Positions 22,801 through 61,691 of a DNA stretch of 64,000 bases are shown piece by piece. The stretch is from Chrysomallon squamiferum (lineage: Eukaryota > Mollusca > Gastropoda > Neomphalida > Peltospiridae). The stretch lies in the NCBI GenBank assembly GCA_012295275.1, contig CM022668.1, positions 1,711,637 through 1,775,636 on the forward strand, read 5' to 3'. Position 1 is the first letter of the stretch; every line of letters begins with the position of its first letter. Position numbers and translations under genes: made by a program. The notes below the pieces were generated by a model. That model did no database searches and had not been told where the DNA came from. It was given only the letters and a program-made list of their open reading frames with translations.

Positions 22801-25800
22801 TAGCCTTGCACTTAAGAATAGAAAAAAAGAAAAAACAAGAAGAAAGAGTGAGCTATATATAATATGTGTGTATGTGTGTGTATATTTCACACCCTGATAT
22901 AATATTCAGATTTTTAATTAAGTTAAGAATTTATTTTTCAGAATTATTTTACATTAGTAATGTCCAGGTTTTAGCATGATTTGCACTGTTAATGTTTTTA
23001 AATTCAGTTTAGTCTTTGTTTCATTTTATTACTAAAAGTGTTCTTTTTTGGAAACCTCACTAACAGTGAACTAACCCTAATTTTTAACCAATCACAGATT
23101 CTGGATCGAGTGAACCCTCCCCTGTTACTTCTCCCTCTGACCCCAAAGAGTTCATTTCTCCTAGCAAGAAGATCCCTATACCAAAAGAAATAATATCAGG
23201 TAAATGCTTATATACGTACAGTGTCAGTGTAGTGAGCTGCTGCTGTAGTGCTTACAGTTTACATATTGTAAATAGATTTTTCTAATAGGACATTGATTTA
23301 TTTATTTATTTATTTTTAAAAACGTTTTGACACTTATGTATACAGTTAAAAACAAATAATAATTTTTTATTTTTTTTATACAGAGACCAGGACAAATGTG
23401 TGAAAAAAACATTAACAAATCAGAAACATGTCTAATAACATGAATTAGATTTATCTGATATGAGTGTCTTTTACAAAGATCAGAACATACACACACAAAA
23501 TAATAAAAAAAGAAACTTCTAATAGAACATATTTACAGTATTTAAGTGTGTTCGTGTGTGTATGTATTTGTGTATATGTCTGTATATAAATATTTTATAT
23601 TTAATAAGAAAATCTTTGTGATGTTCATTTGGCAGTCTTAGTTGTTTCATGCATTGCAATATATTTATATATGCATGTTGTGTGATTTTCATTGTTTCTT
23701 TTACATTATTTATTTTTCTCCTTTCTAAGATATATTTATTTGATAATAATTGGTAACTGATAGATGATTGTGTTTATGAGTTAATAATAAAATAAAGGAT
23801 TAAGTTAAATTCATATTGCTATCCAGCTAAAAGCCATTTTTATTTTATGTGTGTGTGTGTTAATGTGTTTGTGTATATATGAATATGTATAATTATTAAA
23901 TGTAATTATTATCAATCAGTGACAAAACTAAATCATCAAATGGTTACAGTTATAAACATAGTTTTAAAAATGTATACATCTGAAAAATAAAACTTATTTA
24001 TTTGTTTATTAGCTCATTTGATCACATTTTATAAAGGAAAAGTATTAATTTTAACTATTTTTGCATAATTAGATATAAAGATTCTATTTAAATGAGCACC
24101 TGACATTTTACTTACTTACAGATAATTATAATATAGATTGAATCTATATCAGTATATCACATCTCCTCTACTTTATATAAATGATTGCATTAACAAATTT
24201 ACAGATGAAATTCCTGTTGTCAAGGGTGACAAACAGAAAGGAGATGGGGAGAAGGTGGAGCCTGTTACAGTTGAGGTTCCCAAGATGGTTGACCAGGAGC
24301 TGGATTCCATGTTTTTCCAGACAAAGGATATCAGTGAAATAGAAGACAAAGTGGAATGTGACACAGATGATTTCAATGAAATTTTCATACAGGCTAATGA
24401 CATGTGAGTTTATTTTTAGTGTGTATTGAATACAATATTAAGTATTGTAATAAAACATGTGATGACATTAAAAAAATAATAATAATAATAAAATAAATAA
24501 ATAAAAATAATAAAATATAGTAAAAAGAAATAAAAGAAAAATGAAATTCTCTGAAATTATATATTTAATAGTTTTGTATATTTGCTCAGCATTAATTTAT
24601 TTTTATTTTTTTCATTTATTTATTTTTTAATCTAAATATTTTTCCCTTAATAAGTTTATTTTTTAATTTTTTTTGTTTTCAATAATTTAGACTTCCTGCT
24701 ATTCGGAGAGTCCGTCCATCGCGAAGAAAACCAGCTCAAAGTCAGAATCCTCTGAAAACTATGTCACAACACATTGAGATCAAACAGGAGTACACACAGG
24801 TGGACCGAGGTGTTGCAGAACTCGAATTCAGACGCTTTAAAAAAGAACAATGTAAGATAAATAACTGTTTATGTTGCATGTGCATGTCAGGTTGGTTGTT
24901 CCCAGTGTAATGTCAGGTTGATTGTTTTCAGTTTCATTTCAGGTTGATTGTTCTCAGTGTCATGTCAGGTTGATTGTTCCCAGTGTCATGTCAGGTTGAT
25001 TGTTCTCAGTGTCATGTCAGGTTGATTGATCCAGTGTCATGTCAGGTTGATTGTTCTCAGTGTCATGTCAGGTTGATTGTTCCCAGTGTCATGTCAGGTT
25101 GATTGTTCCCAGTGTCATGTCAGGTTGATTGTTTTCAGTTTCATTTCAGGTTGATTGTTCTCAGTGTCATGTCAGGTTGATTGTTCCCAGTGTCATGTCA
25201 GGTTGATTGTTCTCAGTGTCATGTCAGGTTGATTGATCCAGTGTCATGTCAGGTTGATTGTTCTCAGTGTCATGTCAGGTTGATTGATCCAGTGTCATGT
25301 CAGGTTGATTGTTCCCAGTGTCATGTCAGGTTGATTGTTTTCAGTTTCATTTCAGGTTGATTGTTCTCAGTGTCATGTCAGGTTGATTGTTCCCAGTGTC
25401 ATGTCAGGTTGATTGTTCTCAGTGTCATGTCAGGTTGATTGATTCAGTGTCATGTCAGGTTGATTGTTCTCAGTGTCATGTCAGGTTGATTGTTCTCAGT
25501 GTCATGTCAGGTTGATTGTTCCCAGTGTCATGTCAGGTTGATTGTTCTCAGTGTCATGTCAGGTTGATTGATCCAGTGTTATGTCAGGTTGATTGTTCTC
25601 AGTGTCATGTCAGGGTTATTGTTCTAAGTGTCATGTCAGGTTGATTGTTCCCAGTGTCATGTCAGGTTGTTTGTTCTCAATGTCATGTCACTGTGATGTT
25701 TGAAAAATAAATTACAAAAAGATTTTTTGCCATTGCAGATCTATTTTATTATTAATTCTTTTTCTTATCTATTTCTTAGCTAAGAAAAGGCTGAAAAATG

Positions 25801-28800
25801 TTTTTATAAAATAAAAATTAATGTGGTTTATGGTTGCATATATTAATTTTGTTAAACATTGAGTAATGACATAATTAGGGAGAAAAATTAAATTAACTCT
25901 GGTAACAAATAAAATGAGGAATAAAATTGTTTATTAATTAAGTTTTACCACTAGGGCTTGTTAACCTTCATTAAAATACCCAGATTAATTTGATGATTAT
26001 CTAATAATATGAAATGAAGACAGTTAATGATTTATTATTATTATCATTTTTCTTCATCTTTTTGTTTTTGTTTGTTGTTTATTTCTCTTTTTTCATAGAG
26101 GATTAATATTAGATTGTTTAAAACTTGACTCCTTAACAACAGAAGATTTTAAAATTTTCATTTAATTTAATCTTTTTCCTAAGTTTAAAATTTATGCTAT
26201 TACTTATTTTTAAACAAATATTTCAGTATCTAAGGAGACTGGGTTTGCTCAGGAGGCACTGGCAGGACTTGCAAGCAAGGAGAACTTTTCTAAGATAGAA
26301 CTGCGTAAAATGGATGAAGCCTCAACTCCAGGAACAGCACAGCGATACGAACCATTTAAGAATTTGATGTTGCTGCACATCAAAGGACGAAGAACTGTAC
26401 AGACGAGGCTGGTGGAACCGAGCTGTAAATCTTTAAACAGTGGCGACTGCTTCATATTAGTCACACCTGATAAAGTCATACACTGGATTGGAGAATTCAG
26501 CAATGTCATTGAAAAAGCGAAGGTAAAAGAAAAAGATATGGTCCTATTTGTTTTTGTTATTTTAAAAGATATATTTTTTTGGTAATTACAGTAATAAGAG
26601 AATTGTGAATGTATTAGGAGATGTGGCTGTAATGTTTTGATTAAATTGTTAGAAGATAAATAAACACCTAAACAGTTTAAAATAAAGTTAATATTGAAGG
26701 AAGAACGATAACTGTCATTCCTTTGTGAAAATTAATAAAGACTAAAAAGTTCTTATCATCATTCAAAGATATTTTATTACTTTCTAGTCTTCTGAAATTG
26801 CCTCTGTGATAAGTACAAAGAAAGACCTGGGCTGCAGAAGTTCGGTTGTCTTGACAACAGTTGATGAAGTGAAGAGTCAACTTGGCATTGGTACTGTGTT
26901 CTGGTCAGCACTGGGAGGGCAGTCAGAGTATCAAGGTGACAGTTTGTTATTATTAAACTTCTCAAATTCAGACATTTAAAATAATCAGTGATTCTTACTA
27001 AACTTTTAAGCATATCTTGTGGAATTTATTTAGAAAATTTTAATTTATGGAGATACAAGTTCTAGTAATATTCTAGTGTTAATGTTGTTTTGTTGTGTAT
27101 TTAACATTAAGTTAATGTTTTTCAAATATTTGTTTCATTCTTAAACTTAACAAATTGTATTTTAATTTTTAAGTCTAATGTTTGCTCTTCGTTTTCCGAA
27201 TAACCAAATTTTAATTAATTTTATTATAGTTGTTCTTAATTTCTTGTTATTAATAGCAGTGTTAGTATTAGTAATAATAATAGTGGTGGTAGAAGTAGTT
27301 ATAATAATATGACAAGTAGTACTAGAAGATAAAGTTGTAGTATAAAGAGTAAAAGCAGTAGTAGAATTAGTAGTAGTAGTGATAACAATAGTAACAGATG
27401 TAGCAGCAGTATTTGTTTATTTATTTATACTAGTGATAGCAATACTAATAGTAGTAGCAGCAGTATTTATTTATTTATTTATATATGTTAGCAATCCTAA
27501 TAGTGGCAGCAATATTTGCTTATTTATAGCAGTGATAGCAATTGTAATAGTAGTAGCAGCAGTATTTATTTATTTATTTATATATGTTAGCAATACTAAT
27601 AGTGGCAGCAATATTTGCTTATTTATAGCATTCATAGCAATAGTAATCGTAGTAACAACAGTATTTATTTATAGCATTGATAGCAATAGTAATAGTAGTA
27701 ACAGCAGTATTTATTTATTTATAGAAGATAGCAATATTATTAATAGTAGCAGCAGTATTTATTTATTTATAGAGCTGATAGCAATAGTAATAGTAGTAAC
27801 AGCAGTATTTATTTATAGTAGAATAGCAATAGTAATAGTAGTAACAGCAGTATTTATTTATTTATAGTATGATAGCAATAGAAGTAGTAGTAGCAGCAAT
27901 ATTTATTTATTTATAGTAGTAGCAATAGAAGTAGTAGCAGCAGTATTTATTTATTTATTGATAGCAATAGTAATAGTAGTGATAGCAATATTAATAATAA
28001 TAGCAGCAGTAGCAGTATTTATTTATAGTAATTTAATACAGTAGAAATAGTAGTAGCAGCAGTAATAGCAGTATTTATTTTTTTATATAAGTAATAGTAG
28101 TATTTATTTATTTACAATAGTATAAGTAATTGTAGTATTTATTTATTTATAATAATACAAGTAATAGTAGTATTTATTTATTTATAATAGTACATAATAG
28201 TACAAGTAATAGTAGTATTTATTTATTCACAGTAGTAATAGTAATAGTAGTATTTATTTATTTATAATAGTACAAGTAATAGTAGTATTTATTTATTTAT
28301 AGTAGTAATAGTAGTATTTATTTATTTATAATAGTACAAGTAATAGTAGTATTTATTTATAATAGTATAAGTAATAGTAGTATTTATTTATTTATAATAG
28401 TATAAGTAATAGTAGTATTTATTTATAATAGTATAAGTAATAGTAGTATTTATTTATTTATAATAGTACAAGTAATAGTAGTATTTATTTATTTATAAGT
28501 AATAGTAGTATTTATTTATTTATAATAGTATAAGTAATAGCAGTATTTATTTATTTATAATAGTATAAGTAATAGTAGTATTTATTTATTTATAACAGTG
28601 TAAGTAATTGTAGTATTTATTTATTTATAATAGTATAAGTAATAGCAGTATTTATTTATTTAGAATAATATAAGTAATAGCAGTATTTATTTATTTATAG
28701 TATAAGTAATAGTAGTATTTATTTATTTATAATAGTATAAGTAATAGCAGTATTTATTTATTTATAATAGTATAAGTAATAGTAGTATTTATTTATTTAT

Positions 28801-31800
28801 AATAGTATAAGTAATAGCAGTATTTATTTATTTATAATAGTATAAGTAATAGTAGTATTTATTTATTTATAATAGTATAAGTAATAGCAGTATTTATTTA
28901 TTTATAGTATAAGTAATAGTAGTATTTATTTATTTATAATAGTATAAGTAATAGCAGTATTTATTTATTTATAGTATAAGTAATTGTAGTATTTATTTAT
29001 TTATAATAGTATAAGTAATAGCAGTATTTATTTATTTATAGTATAAGTAATAGCAGTATTTATTTATTTATAATAGTATAAGTAATAGCAGTATTTATTT
29101 ATTTATAGTATAAGTAATTGTAGTATTTATTTATTTATAATAGTATAAGTAATAGCAGTATTTATTTATTTATAGTATAAGTAATAGCAGTATTTATTTA
29201 TTTATAATAGTATAAGTAATAGCAGTATTTATTTATAATAGTATAAGTAATAGTAGTATTTATTTATAATAGTATAAGTAATAGTAGTATTTATTTATTT
29301 ATAATAGTACAAGTAATAGTAGTATTTATTTATTTATAAGTAATAGTAGTATTTATTTATTTATAATAGTATAAGTAATAGCAGTATTTATTTATTTATA
29401 ATAGTATAAGTAATAGTAGTATTTATTTATTTATAACAGTGTAAGTAATTGTAGTATTTATTTATTTATAATAGTATAAGTAATAGCAGTATTTATTTAT
29501 TTAGAATAATATAAGTAATAGCAGTATTTATTTATTTATAGTATAAGTAATAGTAGTATTTATTTATTTATAATAGTATAAGTAATAGCAGTATTTATTT
29601 ATTTATAATAGTATAAGTAATAGTAGTATTTATTTATTTATAATAGTATAAGTAATAGCAGTATTTATTTATTTATAATAGTATAAGTAATAGTAGTATT
29701 TATTTATTTATAATAGTATAAGTAATAGCAGTATTTATTTATTTATAGTATAAGTAATAGTAGTATTTATTTATTTATAATAGTATAAGTAATAGCAGTA
29801 TTTATTTATTTATAGTATAAGTAATTGTAGTATTTATTTATTTATAATAGTATAAGTAATAGCAGTATTTATTTATTTATAATAGTATAAGTAATAGCAG
29901 TATTTATTTATTTATAGTATAAGTAATAGTAGTATTTATTTATTTATTTAAATTTCTTTCAGCGTGTGGACCAGATGAGGAAGATGAGCTGTTTGAAAGT
30001 CATCTGATCAAAACAAACATGGTGTACCGGCTTGTTGACAACTCACTCGAACCTTACGAAAAATACTGGGGTGTCCTTCCAAAATATGAAATGTTGAAAA
30101 AGGAAGAGGTAAGTTCTATTTTTCTTATTTTTCTCATCATGTTCACATGTTTATACATAGAAAAAAAGAAAGATTTATTTATCTAACAGCCTTCTGTTAT
30201 TTCAGATTTTTTTATTTCCTTTTTTATTATAAGTTTAAAAAAATAATAACGTTGGAGTTTTTAAAAAAGAAAAAAGAAAATGAAAAAAAAGACATCAGTG
30301 TTACAGCATGCTATCAATTATTAACATAAATGTGTTTCAGGTTCTAGTGTTTGATTTTGGAGGAGAAATGTATTTGTGGATGGGGACAGCAGTTTCCATG
30401 GACAACAGAAAACGTGCTCTGAAACTTGCTCAAAAACTGTGGGATCGAGGATATGATTACTCAGAATGTAACCTTAATCCTTTGTCTCCCCTCAGAAGTA
30501 AGTTTTTAAATCTGTTGTTTCAGTACAGAGATTATGTTAATGACTTAATACTCTTAATAAGTAATGTTTAAATATGTATTTTTTTTCCTAAATTAAAAGA
30601 ACTGAAAAAAAGGGAACACCCTACTAGGCTACATTAATCCTTAATCTGTCATCAGAAGTGATGTTTGCACAAATGTTTATCAGATTAATAAATTAACTCT
30701 ATTTCCCACAAATTCAACTGTTTGTTCCCAAATGTAATCTCTTGGTAACTTAACACCTGAATGATGGTGATCTCCGTCATAGTTTTAAAATTGCCACACA
30801 TTAGCGATGTGACTTATAGTGCTGACGTATGCAGTTATTGATCTACTATGGGCTTCCCCAGCATGCAAGTACGAGCAGAAACTTGTTTCAAAAACGCCCA
30901 GCACCAAAGGTGTTAATATTCAGTGTCATACTTATCTTTATTAATTCTTCGTTAACCTCAAATGAATTCTGTCAATATTATTTGTGTTTTTGACATTCAG
31001 CTGAGGAAGATGGTGGTTTGAAGATGGCTGACACAAAGAGACCCGACTGGGCACTGTTTGGTAAAGTCAGTCAGAACATGGAGACTGTTTTATTTCGAGA
31101 GAAGTTCAGTGACTGGCCAGATACTTCAAGAATTATTCGTTGCCGTGGTCACAGTGAAGAAAAACAGAAAAAGGTATTATTGTGTTGTTGCTCGGTGGTT
31201 AATATCTGAAAAATAAGTTTATCTCAGTAGTCATTTTGAAGTAAATCTGAAAAGCAAAGTTATGAACCTGACTGAAAAGAGGGGTTTCACTGCTGGTTAG
31301 TCCAGTCATGGGCAAGCTGTCTGAGTGGCTGCCTACTTTCACAAGGAAAATAACAATTCAAATTTTATAAAATGAGTCTGATTTGTATTTACTAATATAC
31401 TAAAACTCATGTAATTTTTTTATTATAACAGGTCCTGAAGTAAATGAAAATGAAAAATTTCTTAAAATAAACTCTACATAAAAACACAAATTTATTTTGA
31501 CACGTAATCTCCAGAATCGCCTAAATTAGTAACTGCGGCCCGCCTGAGGATGAGCCATGTCTCATGTGGCCCACTCCTCAAACAAGGTTGCCCATGCCTG
31601 GATTAGACTCTTTTAGTAATACAGTAGTCCAGACTGGATTTTTTTTTTTTTCATGAATGTCAAGTGACATGTTATTGTCTTTTCTCTTTTTTAATGAAGT
31701 CATTCTGTTTAGCAGATGTTGTCCACTCTGATGGTCCATCATTTTAGCCAAATTGTGGGTCTGCCATTACACGTTTTTCTCATGATTACTCCATACTTTC

Positions 31801-33912: not shown

Positions 33913-36900
33913 TGTGTGTGTGTGGGGGTGAGTGGGGGTGAGTGTAAGTGTGTGAGTGAAAATATTTAAAATACATCTGCATGTACGAATAGGAATAACA
34001 AGCCAGTTTATAATTATTACCTGGATAATTAAACAAGCAGAGTACTTCAGAATGCAAACAAACAGCAGATTAATTATTTAAACTATTTTTAGATGTCCGC
34101 TGGAAGTTGGTCTTCATAAGGATGCCTGTATTGTGATAACAGAGGTTGAAGAGGGACAAGAAACCTCAGCTTTCTGGACAGCTCTTGATGGATACTATCA
34201 AAACAGTTACCTGTCTCTCATTAAAGGTAAGAAATTTTATAGAGGTATCATATCCAAAATATATTTAGAAATATTATCTTTAAATTAAATTGGTAAAATT
34301 GCACATACACTATTTAATAGTGATTTTTGACCATTTTTTTTTTATTTATTTCTTACAATTGTTATAATTGTCATTATTGTTGTTGCTGTTTTGTCATTGT
34401 TTTATTACTATTTAATATTTTTAGCAACATGCTAGTACCATCTTTACAATAATTTTATCAGTATAGAAATATACTCAGTCACAGTTAATGAAATTTCTTT
34501 TTCAGATCCTAAGCCATATACGCACACAATCCGTATTTTCAACATGTGCAGTGTGTCGGGGGTGCTGGAAGTGAACGAAGTGCCTAACCCATCGCGGTCT
34601 GAGATGACTACGCCATTTCCATTCCTGCAGTCTGATCTGTACAAGCCAGCGCAGCCTGCCCTGTTTCTCATAGACAATGACCATGAGGTGTACCTCTGGC
34701 AGGGCTGGTGGCCAGTGGCAACTGAGGAACAGGAGAATGTGAAGACAGGATCTGCTCATGCCCGTTTCAATGTTGACAGAAAATGTGCAATACAGACTGC
34801 CATTGATTACTGTAATGGTTGGTATATTTATAATTTATTCATTTCACATTCTTCTTGGATTCTTAACATTATGGACATTGAAAAATTACAATCAAGATAT
34901 TTTGACAGACAGACACACACATAATGATATATGGATTGAATCAGCAATCTTACCTTTGCATGATAAAGCTGATATCTGAAGACAGTAACCAGTTATTCCT
35001 TACACATACACACCCATGCATGCACACATACACATAGACACATGCACACATAGAGTAAATTTTTCAAACAGATGCCTGTAAGGACATGAAAAAACTGCTA
35101 ACAGTGAATTATGAAGAATTATATTTTGTGTATTTACAGAAAAGAATCCTGACAGCCCACCAGGAGCGTACCATGTCTGTGCGGGTGTAGAACCTCAGTG
35201 TTTTACCAACTTGTTTCCTTACTGGCAGGTGGACAAAGTGGTCAGAGACACCAGTTTGAATGTTTGTATCTCTTTACTTTGTGAATCACTTAATTCTTAC
35301 ATGCTGTCAGAAACTAAACAGTTTTCCTTTTCTGTTCATCTCTTCCCCTCCCCTCTCTACCCCCTCTCTCTGTCTTTCTGTCTGTTTCTCTCTTTCTCTA
35401 CCATATAGTGTACACTGTACTCTGTTTTTGTACACAGGAAGGCAAAGTAGATGGCTACATTGATCGTTTAACAGATGTCCTCACAAGACTGAGCAAGACA
35501 AGGTTTACACTGGAAGAACTGCAGGAACGTCCACTGCCTGAAGGTGTCGATGCATCCAAACTGGAGGCATATCTTGATGATGAAGAGTTTGAGGTAAATT
35601 ATTTCACTTTCATCCATTTTATTAAAGTTTCCTCTCTCGGGATTTGTTATTCAAAATGAATAGTTTTTTGAAAAGAACAGATTTTCATCATTGCTTTGAT
35701 TTATGTATAATAGCTTAAACAAACCTATGATTTGCAGAAAATAATATTAAAATATATATTTAATTATCTTTTTATAATCAGACTAAAGCTAAGTTTATAA
35801 AGAACTAATGTGTTTAGTCTTCACTTAAGAGTATATGAGGAATTAGCAGATGTGAATAAAGGACATTATGAAAAAATATTGTCTTTTGGAACTTTACCTT
35901 GATAAGAGAGCAATTTATTAATTCATAACAATTCTCAGAGATGTGTCAAATATTTTCTGTTTTTGGAGGAAACCAATATACTTAAACATATAATGATGTT
36001 TCAACCAATGTTGTTTACTTTCATTTGAATTGCACTCTTTTTAATATTTGTGGGGCAAAAAGAGATTAATCACCTTTCTATTTGTTAAACCTTGAAACCA
36101 AAGCAAATATATGACTAAATAAAATGTATTGATCTAACTTTGTTAAAGATAATGAGAGCTGTTATCAGTAGATTATAAATAGTCAATAACTTGTTTTAAA
36201 TAAATAAGTACTTTGTTACAGATCATGGGAGCTGCTTATCAGTAGATTATAAATAGTCAATAACTTGTTTTAAATAAATAAGTACTTTGTTACAGATCAT
36301 GGGAGCTGTTTATCAGTAGATTATAAATAGTCAATAACTTGTTTTAAATAAATAAGTACTTTGTTACAGATCATGGGAGCTGTTTATCAGTAGATTATAA
36401 ATAGTCAATAACTTGTTTTAAATAAATAAGTACTTTGTTACAGATCATGGGAGCTGTTTATCAGTAGATTATAAATAGTCAATAACTTGTTTTAAATAAA
36501 TAAGTACTTTGTTACAGATCATGGGAGCTGTTTATCAGTAGATTATAAATAGTCAATAACTTGTTTTAAATAAATAAGTACTTTGTTACAGATCATGGGA
36601 GCTGTTTATCAGTAGATTATAAATAGTCAATAACTTGTTTTAAATAAATAAGTACTTTGTTACAGATCATGGGAGCTGTTTATCAGTAGATTATAAATAG
36701 TCAATAACTTGTTTTAAATAAATAAGTACTTTGTTACAGATCATGGGAGCTGTTTATCAGTAGATTATAAATAGTCAATAACTTGTTTTAAATAAATAAG
36801 TACTTTGTTACAGATCATTTATCAGTAGATTATAAATAGTAGTCAATAACTTGTTTTAAATAAATAAGTACTTTGTTACAGATCATGGGAGCTGTTTATC

Positions 36901-37966
36901 AGTAGATAATAAGCAGCCTACAACTTGTTTTAAATAAATAAGTACTTTGTTACAGATCATGGGAGCTGTTTATCAGTAGATTATAAATAGTCAATAACTT
37001 GTTTTAAATAAATAAGTACTTTGTTACAGATCATGGGAGCTGTTTATCAGTAGATTATAAATAGTCAATAACTTGTTTTAAATAAATAAGTACTTTGTTT
37101 CATGGGAAAGTAGATTATAAATAGTCAATAACTTGTTTTAAATAAATAAGTACTTTGTTACAGATCATGGGAGCTGTTTATCAGTAGATTATAAATAGTC
37201 AATAACTTGTTTTAAATAAATAAGTACTTTGTTACAGATCATGGGAGCTGTTTATCAGTAGATTATAAATAGTCAATAACTTGTTTTAAATAAATAAGTA
37301 CTTTGTTACAGATCATGGGAGCTGTTATCAGTAGATTATAAATAGTCAATAACTTGTTTTAAATAAATAAGTACTTTGTTACAGATCATGGGAGCTGTTT
37401 ATCAGTAGATTATAAATAGTCAATAACTTGTTTTAAATAAATAAGTACTTTGTTACAGATCATGGGAGCTGTTTATCAGTAGATTATAAATAGTCAATAA
37501 CTTGTTTTAAATAAATAAGTACTTTGTTACAGATCATGGGAGCTGTTTATCAGTAGATTATAAATAGTCAATAACTTGTTTTAAATAAATAAGTACTTTG
37601 TTACAGATCATGGGAGCTGTTTATCAGTAGATTATAAATAGTCAATAACTTGTTTTAAATAAATAAGTACTTTGTTACAGATCATGGGAGCTGTTTATCA
37701 GTAGATTATAAATAGTCAATAACTTGTTTTAAATAAATAAGTATTGATCTCAGTTTGTTACTGATAATGGTAGCTGTTTATCATTAGATAAACTTGTTTT
37801 CAGACAGGAGCATACTGCTTGCAAATTGCCAAAATAAATAATTATTTGAAAATATTAAAAACATTTTCTTCTTTTGCAGGCATTGATGGAAATGAACAGA
37901 GAGGAATTCTACGTATTGCCATCTTGGAGACAAAGACAACTTAAACAACAAGCTCACTTGTTTTAA
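2509..37966 (+). CDS. SVIL: Supervillin (SVIL), 26 visible exons, 5' part missing
   Basis: Supervillin is a membrane- and actin-associated scaffold of the villin/gelsolin family, known in animals to link myosin II, F-actin and cell-substrate contacts. The 26 exons join in one frame (all splice phases agree) to 1,842 codons ending at TAA 37964-37966. Residues 1-1016 of the visible part are low-complexity and charged, with repeated TQPVT-type modules and [GS]ILK motifs. Residues 1017-1722 are gelsolin-like repeats recognised by strings such as [42 protein letters not shown] and [11 protein letters not shown]. The last ~80 residues form a villin headpiece ([16 protein letters not shown], then LPSWRQRQ). 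The order and spacing match vertebrate supervillin, not villin or gelsolin. The first visible exon is entered in mid-codon, so the start lies left of the window. Exon coordinates follow as separate entries. Confidence 0.95.
2803..2836. repeat. (TTA)n microsatellite
   Basis: Trinucleotide run in SVIL intron A-B. Confidence 0.9.
3220..3462 (+). CDS. SVIL: SVIL exon B
   Basis: Visible residues 56-137. A leucine-rich helix ([13 protein letters not shown]) is followed by an arginine-rich run and the first TQPVT module ([17 protein letters not shown]). Acceptor TTTTTTCACCAG, donor AG|GTTTGT. The codon TG|G spans the junction with exon A. Confidence 0.88.
3463..4929 (+). other. SVIL intron B-C
   Basis: 1.5-kb AT-rich intron with no supported exon. 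A 60-codon open frame near 3933 lacks splice support and looks like chance. Confidence 0.75.
4930..5547 (+). CDS. SVIL: SVIL exon C
   Basis: Visible residues 137-343, the second longest exon. It carries two more modules: [13 protein letters not shown] near its start, and a helix [16 protein letters not shown] followed by [17 protein letters not shown]. The middle is Ser/Asp-rich and probably disordered. Donor GG|GTAAGC is strong. The acceptor is taken at CTCTTGTCAG (4929); an in-frame alternative after CTTTTCAG at 4892 would add 13 residues. Confidence 0.88.
5548..9352 (+). other. SVIL intron C-D
   Basis: 3.8-kb intron. Contains T-rich low-complexity DNA, a directly repeated ~35-bp segment at about 5972-6050 (TTTTTTAATAATCATTTTC twice), a 12-bp G run (7282-7293), a TAA run near 7177-7198, CA/TACA microsatellites at 8150-8230 and a 23-bp A run (8708-8730). 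No exon seen. Confidence 0.8.
9353..9479 (+). CDS. SVIL: SVIL exon D
   Basis: Visible residues 343-385: a short helix [20 protein letters not shown] followed by a basic run [14 protein letters not shown]. The TQ|PVT motif is split by the intron after this exon, so the fourth module is completed by exon E. Acceptor TTTGTCGTTGCAG, donor CAG|GTAACA. Confidence 0.9.
9480..11274 (+). other. SVIL intron D-E
   Basis: 1.8-kb AT-rich intron with no exon recognised; a short A run lies near 11180. Confidence 0.8.
11275..11485 (+). CDS. SVIL: SVIL exon E
   Basis: Visible residues 386-456. Begins [13 protein letters not shown], completing the module started in exon D, then a Pro/Leu-rich segment ([15 protein letters not shown]) and a serine-rich end. 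Acceptor TATTTCCAG, donor AAAG|GTATCA. Confidence 0.88.
11964..12693 (+). CDS. SVIL: SVIL exon F, [GS]ILK-repeat exon
   Basis: Visible residues 456-699, the longest SVIL exon (730 bp). A Ser/Lys/Asp/Glu-rich disordered segment with six exact [GS]ILK tetrapeptides ([42 protein letters not shown]) at about 12026, 12076, 12125, 12188, 12241 and 12357, plus one degenerate copy. [GS]IL[RK] is the SILK docking motif for protein phosphatase 1. Acceptor TATATGTCTTCAG, donor AAAG|GTCAGT. A minor frame is open for ~75 codons but is a shadow. Confidence 0.9.
13861..13972. repeat. (TAA)n microsatellite
   Basis: Long, slightly interrupted TAA run. Confidence 0.95.
19319..19384. repeat. (GA)n microsatellite
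   Basis: About 33 pure GA units inside the SVIL transcript; complementary to the (CT)n at 32772-32827 in the same pre-mRNA. Confidence 0.97.
19798..19880. repeat. (TAA)n microsatellite
   Basis: About 24 TAA units with minor interruptions, responsible for a spurious poly-Asn open frame. Confidence 0.95.
20606..20770 (+). CDS. SVIL: SVIL exon G
   Basis: Visible residues 699-754. Contains the fifth module, [18 protein letters not shown], and an extra upstream YLTQPADLG. Higher GC than its surroundings. Acceptor CACTGTTTACAG, donor AGAG|GTCAGT. It follows a 7.9-kb intron. Confidence 0.9.
20771..21873 (+). other. SVIL intron G-H
   Basis: 1.1-kb AT-rich intron; nothing else recognised. Confidence 0.8.
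21874..22121 (+). CDS. SVIL: SVIL exon H
   Basis: Visible residues 754-837. Has [15 protein letters not shown] and later [20 protein letters not shown], corresponding to the conserved central region of supervillins that ends in an FTVAG motif. Acceptor TTTATTTCAG, donor ACAG|GTTTGT. Confidence 0.93.
22328..22405 (+). CDS. SVIL: SVIL exon I
   Basis: Short 78-bp exon, visible residues 837-863 ([16 protein letters not shown]). Both ends are phase 1, so it could be skipped without changing frame. Acceptor TTTTCTATACCTAG, donor GGAG|GTGGGT. Confidence 0.85.
22406..24204 (+). other. SVIL introns I-J and J-K
   Basis: Apart from exon J (23098-23199) this stretch contains only T-rich and GT-rich low-complexity DNA. 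Confidence 0.75.
23098..23199 (+). CDS. SVIL: SVIL exon J
   Basis: 102-bp exon, visible residues 863-897, Ser/Pro-rich ([26 protein letters not shown]). Symmetric phase 1, a possible cassette exon. Acceptor CCAATCACAG, donor TCAG|GTAAAT. Confidence 0.85.
24205..24403 (+). CDS. SVIL: SVIL exon K
   Basis: Visible residues 897-963: acidic segment ending [14 protein letters not shown], which matches the conserved acidic motif just upstream of the gelsolin core of supervillins. Acceptor AAATTTACAG, donor CAT|GTGAGT. Confidence 0.92.
24691..24851 (+). CDS. SVIL: SVIL exon L
   Basis: Visible residues 963-1017. Basic [18 protein letters not shown] followed by a helix with [17 protein letters not shown], as in other supervillins. 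Acceptor CAATAATTTAG, donor CAAT|GTAAGA. The 26-bp minisatellite starts about 30 bp after the donor. Confidence 0.93.
24884..25690 (+). repeat. 26-bp minisatellite, ~31 copies
   Basis: Tandem copies of GGTTGATTGTTCTCAG plus TGTCATGTCA, with 25-bp variants (GATCCAG) and CCCAG/TCTCAG variants. It lies in SVIL intron L-M, starting soon after the exon L donor. Each unit has an AG followed 11 bp later by CAG|GTTGAT. Confidence 0.96.
26227..26522 (+). CDS. SVIL: SVIL exon M, first gelsolin-like repeat
   Basis: Visible residues 1017-1115. Starts [20 protein letters not shown], a segment strongly conserved in supervillins, then the first gelsolin-like repeat with [20 protein letters not shown] and [19 protein letters not shown]. 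Acceptor AATATTTCAG, donor AAG|GTAAAA. Confidence 0.95.
26788..26935 (+). CDS. SVIL: SVIL exon N
   Basis: Visible residues 1116-1165, the end of the first gelsolin-like repeat ([26 protein letters not shown]). Acceptor ACTTTCTAG, donor CAAG|GTGACA. The intron after it carries the AU-rich minisatellite. Confidence 0.95.
27240..29949 (+). repeat. AU-rich minisatellite with an 841-bp higher-order repeat
   Basis: Begins as irregular GTA/ATAG repeats and becomes regular after about 28090. The unit is roughly 32-36 bp of the form TATTTATTTATTTATAATAG + TATAAGTAATAGYAG. Diagnostic variants (TAACAGTGTAAGTAATTG, TAGAATAATATAAG, a GTATAAGTAATTG variant) recur exactly 841 bp apart (28591/29432, 28661/29502, 28981/29822), showing a large internal duplication. 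The array fills SVIL intron N-O and ends 13 bp before exon O. Confidence 0.93.
29963..30108 (+). CDS. SVIL: SVIL exon O
   Basis: Visible residues 1165-1213 ([31 protein letters not shown]), leading into the second gelsolin-like repeat. Acceptor AATTTCTTTCAG directly abuts the end of the 2.5-kb minisatellite; donor GAG|GTAAGT. Confidence 0.95.
30341..30497 (+). CDS. SVIL: SVIL exon P, second gelsolin-like repeat
   Basis: Visible residues 1214-1266: [18 protein letters not shown] is the core strand of a gelsolin fold, followed by [18 protein letters not shown]. Acceptor ATGTGTTTCAG, donor AGAA|GTAAGT. Confidence 0.95.
30750..30916. mobile_element. Possible TTAA-flanked MITE (piggyBac-like)
   Basis: A 167-bp segment of higher GC than its surroundings, bounded on both sides by TTAA. 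Its ends read TTAACACCT and AGGTGTTAA. The inverted match is short, so this is tentative. Confidence 0.4.
31001..31173 (+). CDS. SVIL: SVIL exon Q
   Basis: Visible residues 1266-1323 ([29 protein letters not shown]), the linker between gelsolin-like repeats found in supervillin. Acceptor TTTTTGACATTCAG, donor AAG|GTATTA. Confidence 0.95.
31303..31600. mobile_element. Non-autonomous hAT element
   Basis: A 298-bp element in SVIL intron Q-R with terminal inverted repeats CAGTCATGGGCAAGC / CAGGCATGGGCAACC. The flanking 8-bp sequences GGTTAGTC and GATTAGAC are an imperfect target-site duplication. The internal TGCGGCCCGC ... TGTGGCCCAC sequence is typical of many short hAT elements. No transposase frame. 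Confidence 0.85.
32038..32147 (+). CDS. SVIL: SVIL exon R
   Basis: Visible residues 1324-1360 ([25 protein letters not shown]). Acceptor GTGTTTGACAG, donor AATG|GTAATA. Codon TG|G (Trp) spans the next junction. Confidence 0.92.
32472..32641 (+). CDS. SVIL: SVIL exon S
   Basis: Visible residues 1360-1417, start of the third gelsolin-like repeat: [20 protein letters not shown] then [12 protein letters not shown]. Acceptor TTTGTTTATAG, donor TCAG|GTAACA. Confidence 0.95.
32772..32827. repeat. (CT)n microsatellite
   Basis: About 28 CT units in SVIL intron S-T, upstream of exon T. Confidence 0.97.
32910..33064 (+). CDS. SVIL: SVIL exon T
   Basis: Visible residues 1417-1468: [20 protein letters not shown] and [11 protein letters not shown], among the best conserved stretches of supervillin. 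Acceptor GAATTGTTCAG, donor CAA|GTTTGT. Confidence 0.96.
33457..33770 (+). CDS. SVIL: SVIL exon U, fourth and fifth gelsolin-like repeats
   Basis: Visible residues 1469-1573. [20 protein letters not shown] closes one repeat, and [13 protein letters not shown] with [11 protein letters not shown] opens the next. Acceptor CTGTGTTTCAG, donor TCA|GTGAGC. Confidence 0.96.
33879..33910. repeat. (AT)n followed by (GT)n
   Basis: 16 AT units followed by GT-rich DNA in SVIL intron U-V. Confidence 0.95.
34093..34226 (+). CDS. SVIL: SVIL exon V
   Basis: Visible residues 1573-1618 ([27 protein letters not shown]), the end of the penultimate gelsolin-like repeat. Acceptor CTATTTTTAG, donor AAAG|GTAAGA. 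Confidence 0.94.
34506..34817 (+). CDS. SVIL: SVIL exon W, last gelsolin-like repeat
   Basis: Visible residues 1618-1722: [20 protein letters not shown] and [20 protein letters not shown], then [13 protein letters not shown]. Acceptor TTTCTTTTTCAG, donor AATG|GTTGGT. Confidence 0.96.
35140..35261 (+). CDS. SVIL: SVIL exon X
   Basis: Visible residues 1722-1762: [20 protein letters not shown], matching the conserved end of the gelsolin core. Acceptor GTATTTACAG, donor AAT|GTTTGT, which is weak but keeps the frame. Confidence 0.92.
35438..35593 (+). CDS. SVIL: SVIL exon Y, start of villin headpiece
   Basis: Visible residues 1763-1814. Linker helix, then [20 protein letters not shown], the first half of the villin headpiece. 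Acceptor TGTACACAG, donor GAG|GTAAAT. Confidence 0.95.
35594..36127 (+). other. 5' part of the last SVIL intron
   Basis: Unique AT-rich DNA before the 74-bp minisatellite; no exon seen. Confidence 0.7.
36128..37790 (+). repeat. 74-bp minisatellite, ~22 copies, in the last SVIL intron
   Basis: Nearly identical 74-bp units (spacing measured from successive CATGGGAGCTG copies at 36298 and 36372). Each contains AATAAATAAG, ACTTTGTTACAG and ATCATGGGAGCTG. A few units are truncated (near 36818 and 37100), and the outermost units at both ends are diverged (TTGATCTAACTTTGTT, TTGATCTCAGTTTGTT). Confidence 0.97.
37880..37966 (+). CDS. SVIL: SVIL exon Z, end of villin headpiece and stop
   Basis: Visible residues 1815-1842, with [18 protein letters not shown] and a Leu-Phe C-terminus, then TAA. 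This is the actin-binding subdomain of the headpiece. Compared with the villin ending (KKEKGLF type) the residues before Leu-Phe are KQQAH, so basic positions and the glycine are lost. Acceptor CTTCTTTTGCAG. Confidence 0.95.
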   Translation, partial: ALMEMNREEFYVLPSWRQRQLKQQAHLF

Positions 37967-40556
37967 TAATAAAAAAAATATATATATAAAAAGAGATATA
38001 AATTTACAACTAACAATATATTTGAAATTAGATGTCCTAATAAGGTAGGCATGAGGACAAAACTAACCATATATTATTATTAAGTCTGTAAGACACAAAG
38101 TGTACATTTAATTGTACATAAGAGCAGTGTACAAAGATAAACTGTACACTAGTTGTAGAAGATGAAACTACAACTATCAGTAATCAATATTCTGTAGAGA
38201 ACAGTTATTGGTCTTTAAAAATAGTAAACAATATTTGAGATCTGTTGCCATAGAAACATGACTTCTCTTCTAAGATTAGAAAGAAAATATCAGTGATGAC
38301 ATTTTGTGATCATAACAGACTTTCCTGTTTTCTTCTTTTTATTAAAATACATTGTCTGTGCCAACGTGCTTTGAATATGGCTGCCTTAATTTTGCAACCT
38401 AATACAAAAATCATTTTACTCTCATCAGAGAATCATTTTAACTGCAACACTGGTATTTAGATCAACTTGCAGCAAGCATTACTGTTCTTGATACCAGTCT
38501 GCTGCTGTTCTCATTTGGGTTATCAAAATAGCAATTCATTCACATAATAGTTTAGGACATCCATTTTAAAAATTTATATATAGGGAGTCCTAAAAGCAAA
38601 TATTATGTCAGGTCATTCAGGGGAGAAAAAAAAAAAAAAAAGATTAGTTGTGTCCATTATTTAAGAATTTATTTATTCATTAAAAAGCACTCACTAGAAT
38701 TTTCTATTTGAAGCAGCTTATATGTTGGTGGGGATAGTCGGTGCCAGTGAAGACAGTTGTCCAAAGAAAAGATTAATCAATAAATTTATTTTTAACAAAC
38801 TGTTATATAATATATATAAAATTACCATTTTAAATGACAAACCAATCTGCAATAGTGTTTTCCTCTATCACCTGTTTTGCAAGCTGAGTAGCTGCTTTTA
38901 AATTAGTTGGCAGTGTTGTGTGAGACTGTTGTCTTTGTCAGTGTATGATTGTTAAACTGTATTTCTGTTTAAGAAATAAAGATTTAGGTTTCAGTATGCT
39001 GCAGAATGCTTTGATATTTTTAAATTTAATAGCTCAATTTGTATTTACATTTAATACTTCTCTCATTACAATAAAATATAAAATATTGATAATTACAGTT
39101 TGAAATATTTTTAAGACACAAAAACTAGAAATGAAATGTTTTTGCATCTGCAAAATGCTTTCTGAATGTTTTCATAATCTAGTGAGACCCAGATTTTTAC
39201 TTTACATTTGTTTTCACTAACTTTATTCACATGAAAAATAGAGAAAGATGAAGCATTCTGTAGTAGTTGATTTAAATTACTGACACTTCATACAGATAAA
39301 AAAGTGTAGTATTCTTTGATGTGATCATTTATATACATTCAAAAACATAACCAGCAAAAATGAATAAAAGTAGACTGATATGTAATGTACAAATCTGAAA
39401 AATCTGGTCTCTAAGCGTGTGATGTGTGTGATTGTTTGCATGTGCATATGTAATCTTGTCTTTATAATTTTCTTTTTTTTTGAAGTCTTGAGAGAAATTT
39501 GCTATTGCTAATTTGAATTATGATTACAACATGAAAATGCCTTCATATTAATATCTGATTTACAGCAATAAATGTTACTCTTGATTTTCATTTTATAAAT
39601 ACCTCTGGTATAAATTAATATCAGTATTTTCTTCTTTCTTTAAAAAAAAATAAAACAAATAATGGAAAGAGTAAGAAAAAAAAGAAAGCCAAAATAATAA
39701 TTCCTTTGCATTTTTTCCAGCTTGGCTAATGAAATAAGTATGATATTAATTGCTGTTGGTTTTGAAGATTTTTAATGCTTGTCTTTAAAAGGTGTTTTTC
39801 TTTCGTTATCTGTTTTTTGTTTTTTGTTGGGTTTTTTGTCTGCAATAGGTATCATTTTTGTCATGATTTTTTCTTAATGGTTTAATTATAAATGATCATA
39901 TTTTGTAAAAAATAAATTTTTGTCTTATATATATGCCTGTATTAGTGCCATTACTGGTGATAAAAATTGATTAATATGCAATTTTTAAATATTTTTTTTT
40001 AAACTAATTATAAATTCAGAGGCAATTCCTTTTACAACAGAACTGTGGTATCTGACAATTATTCCTGAGAATATTTTCTCATGGATGTCTTTACAGTTGT
40101 TGTGTGTTTACACAGCAGAGTGTTTACACTCGGATGTTTTGTAGTGGCTTTTTTCACAAAATGTTACCATTGCAATATCCCAGCTGGGTCTGGCTAGAAA
40201 CACATGTTGACATGTGTTACTTCAGACTCAGTCAGTGTGACTGCTTCAAGCTCACAGTATGTTTTGCTGTGAGGCATAAAGCTTCTTTCAGACAAGGCAA
40301 GGTGGGAAACTCTTTACGATATTAATACAGCAATCTGTGATGTTATATAAAAACTAGCCTATTTCAGTTATGCAATTTTTGTACATTTCTGCTACATATT
40401 TTTTTGACATTATATTTCCCCTTATAATTTGTATATAAAATGAGTATGGACACACTTCTACAAATAAACATAAAATAAAATAAATATACTATATAATCTA
40501 TTTATATCTGTGTTGTGAATTTCTGTTTTTGTTATTTTCTGTACTTGATAATGATA

Positions 40557-40587
<31 letters not shown>

Positions 40588-41708
40588 GAGAGAGAAAGAG
40601 ACAACAAAGATGCACACTACATACCTGTGCCTCTGCCTATACACACAACATATATGTACATACAGAATTCTGAATGTTTTGTTATAGGAAGATTAGGTCA
40701 GGTAACCTTTAAATCATGTTCTAAAATAATTATTTTAATACACTAGCTTTTAGGGTTGCCACTCCTTTCAGTAGCAAATTACACTGAAAACAGAAACATA
40801 AAGTGACTTGAATTATGCAGGGGTGCAGCAGTTAAAAGCACTGGTAGAGAATGGAATAATATTAGTATCGAATAATTAATGTACCTTTCTTTTATTTCTA
40901 TTATTTCTTCAAAGCATTATATGTAAACTGAACAGCAAACTACATGTTCATTTAGTTTTTTGGACTCTACAATATTGCTGACTCAGTGTATTTTGATAAA
41001 TTAATACTGATAAAATACAGATAGAAATATAAAATATATGTTAAATATGTATTGACAAAAATTTCAACAATGTTCATGAAACAATTTAATATGAAAATTG
41101 GTACACACACATGTAAGATGAACATAAATGAAGTGAATTGTTAAACATCACAAACTATTACTTCATGCAAGAAAAAGTTTTATGTGGTAACAAAAATATT
41201 AAAATTACTTCTTTGAAAATACAGGTACAAAATATACAATAGGAATAAACAAGAATGTTTTTGCAATAATACAATGAAGTGTCAAATTCAGCTGTAATTG
41301 TGAATCATGGGTTAAAAACAACAGTAAAAGGTTATAAATGTAAATTAGTGCATGGTTAATAATCCATGTAGATATATGAATGAATGGACAAAAAGCAATG
41401 TGGACAATACCATCCAGTTTAAAATAACTTAGTGAACAGTATCCAGTTTTAAAATTATATACATGCAAAGTTCTGTCTGGTTTAACACTGTGGTAAATAA
41501 TGACCAGTTTAACGTTGTGTGATTAGTACTGTCCTGCTTAACCCTAAGTGTGTGAACAGTACTGTCCTGCATAACACTAAATGTGTGAACAGTACTGTCC
41601 TGTTTAACACTAAGTGTGTGAACAGTACTGTTCTGCTTAACACTAAGTGTGTGAACAGTACTGTCCTGTTTAACACTAAGTGTGTGAACAGTACTGTCCT
41701 GTTTAACA
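37967..41708 (+). other. SVIL 3' UTR and intergenic DNA
   Basis: No convincing exon. AATAAA motifs lie at 37968, 38975-38980, around 39572 and around 39910, so the SVIL transcript may end anywhere between. A 73-codon frame at 40104-40325 has no recognisable product. A (GT)n/(GA) tract lies near 40560-40597. Confidence 0.7.
38975..38980 (+). terminator. Candidate SVIL poly(A) signal
   Basis: AATAAA about 1 kb after the SVIL stop codon, in a less AT-extreme context than most other copies. Choice among several AATAAA motifs cannot be made from sequence alone. Confidence 0.35.
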
Positions 41709-41740
41709 TTAAGTGTGTGAACAGTACTGTCCTGCATGGG
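41527..41740. repeat. 33-bp minisatellite, ~7 copies
   Basis: Copies of GTGTGAACAGTACTGTCCTG + TTTAACACTAA with a 33-bp spacing (TACTG at 41527, 41560, 41593, 41626). As 33 is a multiple of three, one plus frame and two minus frames stay open through it. It overlaps the predicted 3' end of the minus-strand gene. Confidence 0.95.
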
Positions 41741-41874: not shown

Positions 41875-42606
41875 CTGAATTAGCAAAATAATTTTCATTA
41901 GCAGAGGTAATGATAACTTTATATATCACTTTCTATATATATATATATATATAATGGCGAGAAAATTATTCTGGTTTACAATTTTATAAATTTAAAAATG
42001 TATAATTCATCATAATGATAACTATATCAAATAAATACTTACAAATATGTAGGAAGAATCAAATGATTAGTCTCGTTTACAATTTTATTTACCACATTCT
42101 AGTATAAAAATTTATTTAGCTCAACTTTTCAAACAATATATGTATACTTCAAGTACCATCTGACTAGTGATACTAGGAAATACTAGAAAGTATTCTGGTT
42201 TGACATATTTTTTCTTTAACCACCTAAAATAAATTTCCATTTTATAGCCACTTTTAGAATATATGCTAACTACAAATATTCTGCTTTTGGGAAAGTAGTT
42301 AAATTATAGAAGCAAAAGGAAATGTAGAGGTTGGAACATTGTGCAGTTTTTCTATTCAGCAAAATATTTATTTTTAAACTAGTTTTGTTAATGACCTTCT
42401 GCTCTCAGACAAAGCTCTGGTAAAGAAATCTGATGTTCTGGCATCATTTATGTCTTCTGTGGCATCTAATTTTCCATCTTTCTGAAAATATATACACTAA
42501 ATAAAATAATAAACACTTATTTGTATTATTTATATAGGTTGGTTACTGTTAATGGTAATTATTAAATAATTTATTTTGTACTTTTACATTTTTAGGAAAA
42601 AAGATA

Positions 42607-42637
<31 letters not shown>

Positions 42638-43075
42638 ACTGAACAGATATAATATATTCAAATGCTGTTTTTTGCTACATAATTCAGGAACATATTTTAT
42701 AGTTGTGAAAAAAGAAGAAGAAAAAAGTATGAATTACATGAATGTATATATCAAAGAAAAAATAGAAGTAGATATATACTATAATAATAAAAGTAATAAC
42801 ATTATTTTGTGATCTGATTTGAATGATTATAATCAGAACATGCTATCGTGAATATTTCATGTCATTATAATGTTATTATGATGGTAACAGAACGTAGCAA
42901 CACATGAAATGCATTTCTTAAATTTATATAAAATCCATTTTCAAATAATGTTTTTCAAATAGACCTTTTGTTGAGTGTACTGTTCTGTTATAAAATCTTC
43001 TAAAGATTTGGATTTTTCACAGACCTCTTCATTTTCTTTCCCTTTGTTTACATTTTTGCTTGTTTTGTCCGCCAT
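41709..43075 (-). CDS. Small unknown gene, 3 exons, ~120 aa
   Basis: Not recognised. Three minus-strand exons (43075-42965, 42481-42396, 41874-41709) join in one frame with GT-AG sites to 120 codons plus TAA. The product is hydrophilic and mostly helical: a Lys/Glu N-terminus (starting MADKTSKNVNKGKENEE), a middle with DARTSDFFTRALSESRR, and a coiled-coil-like SKSQEKLKKLHDELG followed by RFNEWRSEHAAEVLEPAQAE. No signal peptide or membrane segment. The start has a good context (A at -3, G at +4). It lies 246 bp from the ODAD4 start in divergent orientation with an X-box between them, hinting at a ciliary role (inference). The stop lies in the 33-bp minisatellite, so the 3' end is uncertain. 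Confidence 0.6.
42396..42481 (-). CDS. Unknown small gene, exon 2
   Basis: Encodes KDGKLDATEDINDARTSDFF and on to ALSESR. Acceptor TATTTTCAG, donor AGAAG|GTCATT. Without splicing, the frame would stop 8 codons later. Confidence 0.6.
42965..43075 (-). CDS. Unknown small gene, exon 1
   Basis: 37 codons from ATG (complement of 43073-43075) to QYTQQK. Donor AAG|GTCTAT. Ends in phase 0, which fits exon 2. Confidence 0.65.
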
Positions 43076-43321
43076 AGTTAAGCAACTTAAATCGAGGCTT
43101 AAATCGTTCACTGGTATACGTCACTTATTGCGCTTCGTTTCCTTAATGATAGTGAATTACCGACATGTCACATAGGATATCAGTATATTCCTGTTATATT
43201 CACCTGGTTGTCAGTGACAACGAAAGAAGCAGGTGCCCGTGTCTGAAAAAGAAAAGCGCCGTGTAATAAGGATTAATCCCTGATTAAACAGTTTCTATTG
43301 TTAAGAGATTATTAATAAACA
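43076..43321. promoter_or_regulatory. Divergent (bidirectional) promoter region
   Basis: 246 bp between the ATGs of the minus-strand gene and ODAD4. It is clearly less AT-rich and contains more CpG than its surroundings, with an ACGTCA half-site at 43118-43123 and an X-box at 43207-43221. Confidence 0.65.
43207..43221. promoter_or_regulatory. X-box (RFX-factor binding site)
   Basis: GTTGTC-AGT-GACAAC is a perfect inverted repeat fitting the X-box consensus RYYNYY-N(1-3)-RRNRAC bound by RFX factors, which control ciliary genes in animals. It lies 101 bp upstream of the ODAD4 ATG and 132 bp upstream of the divergent gene's ATG. Confidence 0.75.

Positions 43322-61691
<18,370 letters not shown>

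Follow-up and report, generated by a model that had tools for sequence, protein, structure and literature searches.

A symmetric X-box-like palindrome in the putative bidirectional promoter of ODAD4 and a small minus-strand gene in Chrysomallon squamiferum

In Chrysomallon squamiferum, the gap between ODAD4 and a small gene on the opposite strand holds a perfect inverted repeat, GTTGTC-AGT-GACAAC, that resembles the X-box recognized by RFX factors. We propose that an RFX dimer on an unmethylated bidirectional promoter drives ODAD4 and probably the small gene as well, a reading to which we assign a probability of about 0.62. All positions refer to the window, which denotes the whole stretch of 64,000 bases that was analysed; the features in and around the gap are collected in Table 1.

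A symmetric site in a CpG-undepleted gap

A pattern search of the window located GTTGTCAGTGACAAC at 43207-43221, exact to the base. GTTGTCNNNGACAAC has one exact match in the 64,000 bases and, with up to two mismatches allowed, five matches against 1.84 expected; five or more turned up in 5 of 100 shuffles. The window is thus no more than mildly enriched in near-matches, and the exact copy stands out. The first-pass annotation had set this palindrome in a short space between two genes, which proved accurate, and the site is the only exact copy in 64 kb.

The palindrome consists of two inverted GTTGTCA monomers with one G between them, the first on the plus strand from 43207 and the other on the minus strand covering 43215-43221. 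The C. elegans X-box form, GTHNYY-AT-RRNAAC, has no match within 43000-43400; its spacer is AT, while that of the palindrome is the 3-nt AGT. The Drosophila form GYTRYY-N1-3-RRHRAC, in contrast, accommodates the palindrome. Further, both arms, each taken with the next base, fit the RFX monomer GTTGYCA, which is common to human RFX2 and two motifs of choanoflagellate ciliary promoters (PMC10530576, cited from excerpts). The same excerpts give GTNRCC N0-3 RGYAAC as the canonical metazoan X-box, which resembles the snail site in its inverted hexamers, its short spacer, and its location close to the start of a ciliary gene. However, each of the snail arms, GTTGTC and GACAAC, is one base off, and this strict vertebrate form (GTNRCC-N0-3-RGYAAC) finds no match within 43000-43400. 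The earlier description as a perfect RFX site thus stands for the symmetry of the palindrome and for the Drosophila form, and falls for the strict vertebrate and C. elegans forms. Inverted E-boxes, CACCTG (43201-43206) and CAGGTG (43230-43235), are found on either side of the palindrome.

How often such sites arise by chance was estimated from 40 Markov sequences as a control for the window and from a background sample of 220 kb outside the window, drawn from the same genome in 22 stretches, two of which adjoin the window. The symmetric class GTTRYC-N1-3-GRYAAC occurs twice in the window against 0.07 expected and once in the sample (stretch L008, position 7155), which corresponds to 0.0003 (Markov) to 0.0011 (sample, from that one site) per 246 bp. 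The loose Drosophila class is far less discriminating, with 9 in the window against 6.6 expected (0.026 per 246 bp) and 20 in the sample (0.022 per 246 bp). For the strict vertebrate class we found two sites in the window against 0.12 expected, at 31139 and 34708, both outside the gap and inside open frames of a gelsolin-family gene, and three in the sample (0.0034 per 246 bp). One site, at 38244, belongs to the C. elegans AT-spacer class (0.55 expected), and single RFX half-sites are not enriched in the window (87 against 92.7 expected). Sample site L015 8379 was read as lying inside a coding exon. A loose X-box alone is therefore weak evidence, and it is the perfect symmetry at a promoter position that makes the site convincing.

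The opposed start codons lie at 43075 (minus strand) and 43322 (plus strand), which bears out the head-to-head arrangement with a short gap described earlier. In a bidirectional promoter, by definition, less than 1 kb separates the starts of two opposed genes, and the ATG spacing of 246 bp falls within this limit. The palindrome is 101 bp from the ATG of ODAD4 and 132 bp from that of the small gene. The gap contains 10 CpG at an observed/expected ratio of 1.22, whereas the ratio across the window is 0.25; of overlapping 246-bp windows, 0.6% are as high as the gap. In otherwise CpG-poor DNA, this pattern suggests an unmethylated promoter. The CpG-undepleted stretch has its left edge at the ATG of the small gene and its right edge approximately 260 bp into ODAD4, so that a promoter of ODAD4 accounts for it no less well than a symmetric shared promoter would. 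ATAAACA and GTAAACA (Table 1) are forkhead-type motifs. An Rfam search of this DNA returned no match and, like a scan for bacterial-type promoters, is uninformative for it.

Table 1. Coordinates of features in and around the gap between ODAD4 and the small gene
Feature	Position	Strand	Evidence
X-box-like RFX site GTTGTC-AGT-GACAAC	43207..43221	.	exact match
ATG-to-ATG gap, 246 bp, putative shared (bidirectional) promoter	43076..43321	.	start codons and CpG observed/expected
CpG-undepleted stretch	43070..43580 (right end about)	.	CpG positions
Single RFX half-site GTTGCT next to the ATG of the small gene	43081..43086	-	0.36-0.45 such hexamers per 246 bp by chance
Forkhead-type motif ATAAACA directly before the ODAD4 ATG	43315..43321	+	motif match
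Forkhead-type motif GTAAACA within exon 1 of the small gene	43045..43051	-	motif match
Small gene exon 1 (37 codons of coding sequence up to a GT donor)	42965..43075	-	codon score 0.315; 1.6% of 670 null windows score as high
Small gene exon 2	42396..42481	-	codon score 0.546; 1.6% of 1349 null windows score as high
Small gene exon 3 and stop codon	41709..41874	-	codon score 0.756; none of 633 null windows scores as high
Alternative small-gene end: exon 2 read-through to stop, 72 aa	42374..42395	-	AATAAA begins at 42372
Minisatellite (33-bp unit, 6.7 copies) that overlaps the end of exon 3	41516..41735	.	repeat search
ODAD4 exon 1 (coding part)	43322..43474	+	gene model; PDB match

ODAD4 and the small minus-strand gene

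The plus-strand gene is ODAD4 (TTC25), subunit 4 of the outer dynein arm docking complex, as the first-pass annotation had named it; PDB matches, matches in a large protein set, and a tree agree on this. A PDB search with its first 145 residues gave ODAD4 chains, with 8j07_m9 at the top (E 1.1e-31), a chain that we take to be human ODAD4, and homology extends over the TPR regions. The model comprises 15 exons with GT-AG introns from 43322 to about 58605. Of 7,995 candidates scored against its 537-residue core, 873 proteins reach E 0.001 or better, and abalone ODAD4 heads the 120 matches listed. Identity to the protein of Gigantopelta aegis is 82% over 359 columns, and in a midpoint-rooted tree of the window sequence with 47 of the 120 matches listed, the two are sisters with support 100/100. 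What distinguishes the protein of the window's model from the known subunit is a long acidic, repeat-rich C-terminus. In human, ACLY presumably adjoins ODAD4.

The same tree separates molluscan ODAD4 into two clades, as far as its midpoint root and the 47 of 120 listed matches reach, and the window gene falls in one of them, together with Gigantopelta P0017, Haliotis, Lingula, and Owenia. Thirteen mollusc rows, labelled second copy before the tree was built on account of their lower identity among the matches listed, form one clade (100/99) and group with Lineus, Paralvinella, and Bugula. Under the midpoint root, deuterostome and Actinia rows are placed on the side of the window's ODAD4.

On the minus strand, three exons (43075-42965, 42481-42396, and 41874-41709) join in phase across two phase-consistent introns to 120 codons. 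Codon scores were based on the codon frequencies of ODAD4 and its neighbour (2,719 codons), the training exons being models of this analysis itself, and were compared with stop-free, non-coding null windows, which overlap and are thus not independent trials. Opposite exon 2, one frame of the other strand is also open and scores 0.335. The start is Kozak-like: as in the Kozak rule, A stands at -3 and G at +4. The donors GTCTAT and GTCATT look weak, and the stop codon lies inside the 33-bp minisatellite. The three-exon, 120-aa model of a coding gene is credible. The 72-aa product of the alternative end would stop directly before AATAAA. The length of 120 aa announced earlier is that of one gene model.

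A search of the PDB gave no significant match to the small protein (best of 4 listed, E 0.037), and Pfam assigns it no family. Four Pfam matches listed (best E 0.0048; DUF4110 0.028) were rejected, since all fall under the curated cut-offs. A large protein set that includes mollusc proteins yielded 9 candidates of 66-210 aa, none at E 1 or better, and 71 candidates of 132-420 aa, none at E 10 or better, in a search that depends on identical words of 5 residues and would overlook relatives that evolve fast. Fold prediction of the exon-3 frame alone, run with no alignment, gave three helices (17, 15, and 10 residues; mean pLDDT 66.8), by which the label "coiled-coil-like" is at best weakly backed.

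Possible RFX control and competing explanations

That RFX factors drive cilium genes across animals is already a well-established rule, and RFX control of ODAD4, which we consider likely, would be unsurprising because this known role predicts it. In the mechanism we envisage, the gap would act as a compact, unmethylated bidirectional promoter, and an RFX dimer would bind the inverted repeat, which precedes the ODAD4 ATG by about 100 bp and the ATG of the small gene by about 130 bp. Bound RFX would drive ODAD4, which encodes a docking subunit of the outer dynein arm, in cells that bear motile cilia or flagella. Since the palindrome reads alike on both strands and sits between the two start codons, the same dimer would probably raise transcription of the small gene too, which would then probably be active in sperm or ciliated cells. 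That the small gene uses this promoter as well appears rather likely to us. That its product is a cilium component is plausible but less likely than not, and it is somewhat less likely still that the 120-aa protein represents a fast-evolving, unannotated component of the cilium or sperm flagellum of vent snails, co-activated with ODAD4 by one RFX dimer; as evidence for a ciliary role, a shared promoter is weak. The gap itself is very probably an ordinary cilium-gene promoter.

A close counterpart of the site is known from Drosophila pseudoobscura, where GA15848 carries GTTGTC-TGT-GACAAC 122 bp upstream of its ATG (PMC2375033, Table 2; this study is cited from excerpts throughout). GA15848 is the orthologue of Drosophila CG30441, a gene whose expression falls in the dRfx mutant (PMC2375033). 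Both sites are palindromic with the arms GTTGTC and GACAAC and a 3-nt spacer, at a comparable distance (122 bp versus 101 and 132 bp); the spacer is TGT in the fly and AGT in the snail. The fly site belongs to another gene, whose RFX dependence was established via the D. melanogaster mutant; for the snail site such dependence is putative. The site of D. melanogaster CG30441 itself is GTTGTC-AAT-AGCAAC at 60 bp (PMC2375033). By our own count in the excerpted table, 16 of the 23 RFX-dependent genes have a conserved X-box and 7 have none; in 11 of those 16, one lies at most 150 bp upstream of the D. melanogaster ATG (PMC2375033). According to the same excerpts, palindromic X-boxes are over-represented among RFX-regulated genes, and an X-box at a single gene does not predict RFX-dependent expression; X-boxes are equally frequent at negative control genes (PMC2375033). 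Excerpts of a study of frog multiciliated cells name RFX sites as the top promoter motif of the genes of these cells and describe a comparable enrichment for human, mouse, zebrafish, fly, and Nematostella (PMC5245798). Our literature search returned no paper joining TTC25, X-box, and RFX and none joining X-box, RFX, and mollusc. If our reading is true, the snail joins the animals with RFX sites at dynein-arm gene promoters, here in the 3-nt-spacer form, and the orphan gene gains a cheap guilt-by-association lead.

A real RFX site might nevertheless serve ODAD4 alone, with the small gene as an unrelated neighbour or as a promoter-derived transcript with a lineage-specific, non-ciliary frame, a somewhat unlikely arrangement in our judgement. 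In amphioxus, 25% of neighbouring genes (3,950 of 15,884) are in bidirectional promoters, which are enriched for housekeeping functions (PMC6292497, excerpts), so that proximity alone says little. The short gap and the opposed genes are common to these promoters and the snail pair, whereas one partner here is a cilium gene. In line with a promoter of ODAD4 only, no homologue of the small protein was found in the PDB, Pfam, or the large protein set, though the last contains ODAD4 of many snails and bivalves; moreover, the CpG-undepleted stretch is skewed to ODAD4, and the small gene ends in a minisatellite. Shared use is favoured by the codon use and splice phase of the small gene, which indicate coding, and by the symmetry of the palindrome at 101-132 bp from both ATGs.

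It is improbable, by contrast, that the palindrome is a chance inverted repeat and that other factors drive the promoter. The loose Drosophila class is indeed little above expectation in 64 kb, at about 0.02-0.03 per 246 bp, the choice of motif near a gene of interest was free in the first-pass annotation, and coding positions hold the other symmetric copy in the window (as read) as well as both vertebrate-form matches (open frames). Yet the symmetric class is expected at only 0.0003-0.0011 per 246 bp, the CpG-undepleted stretch precedes a gene of an RFX-regulated class, and a near-identical site is found at GA15848, the orthologue of an RFX-dependent fly gene (PMC2375033, excerpts). The palindrome also reads TTGTCA-G-TGACAA, so that another factor with an inverted TGACA core might use it, for example a TALE homeodomain dimer. 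Such use is most improbable, given that both 7-bp arms fit the RFX monomer and the neighbour is a motile-cilium gene. TGACA is the TALE core.

Further features of the window

A plus-strand gene of the gelsolin/villin family spans 1-35650 and converges on the small gene. One of the six frames scanned contains a Gelsolin repeat (E 7.7e-07), and the gene has both villin and gelsolin matches; it is probably supervillin, a name assigned from these resemblances. A second symmetric RFX-like palindrome, GTTGTC-TT-GACAAC, lies at 26845-26858 in what was read as a coding exon of this gene and is probably a coincidence. The X-box of the C. elegans form, GTTGCC-AT-AGAAAC at 38244-38257, is located where the gelsolin-family gene has ended and before the small gene's own end is reached.

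ODAD4 contains a duplicated block, 51337-52841 versus 52767-54463, with 88.6% identity over 1,356 aligned bases, the compared stretches sharing about 75 bases of overlap. Each copy contributes one 75-base exon to the model (51436-51510 and 52862-52936). Further downstream, at 56618-59393, a large acidic C-terminal exon passes into a 30/90-bp repeat array that codes for protein repeats; the frame of the model stops at 58605, and another frame is open beyond. Long minisatellite arrays also occur within and after the gelsolin-family gene, at 28061-29947, 36137-37743, and 24883-25690, with units of 35/67, 74, and 26 bp, respectively.
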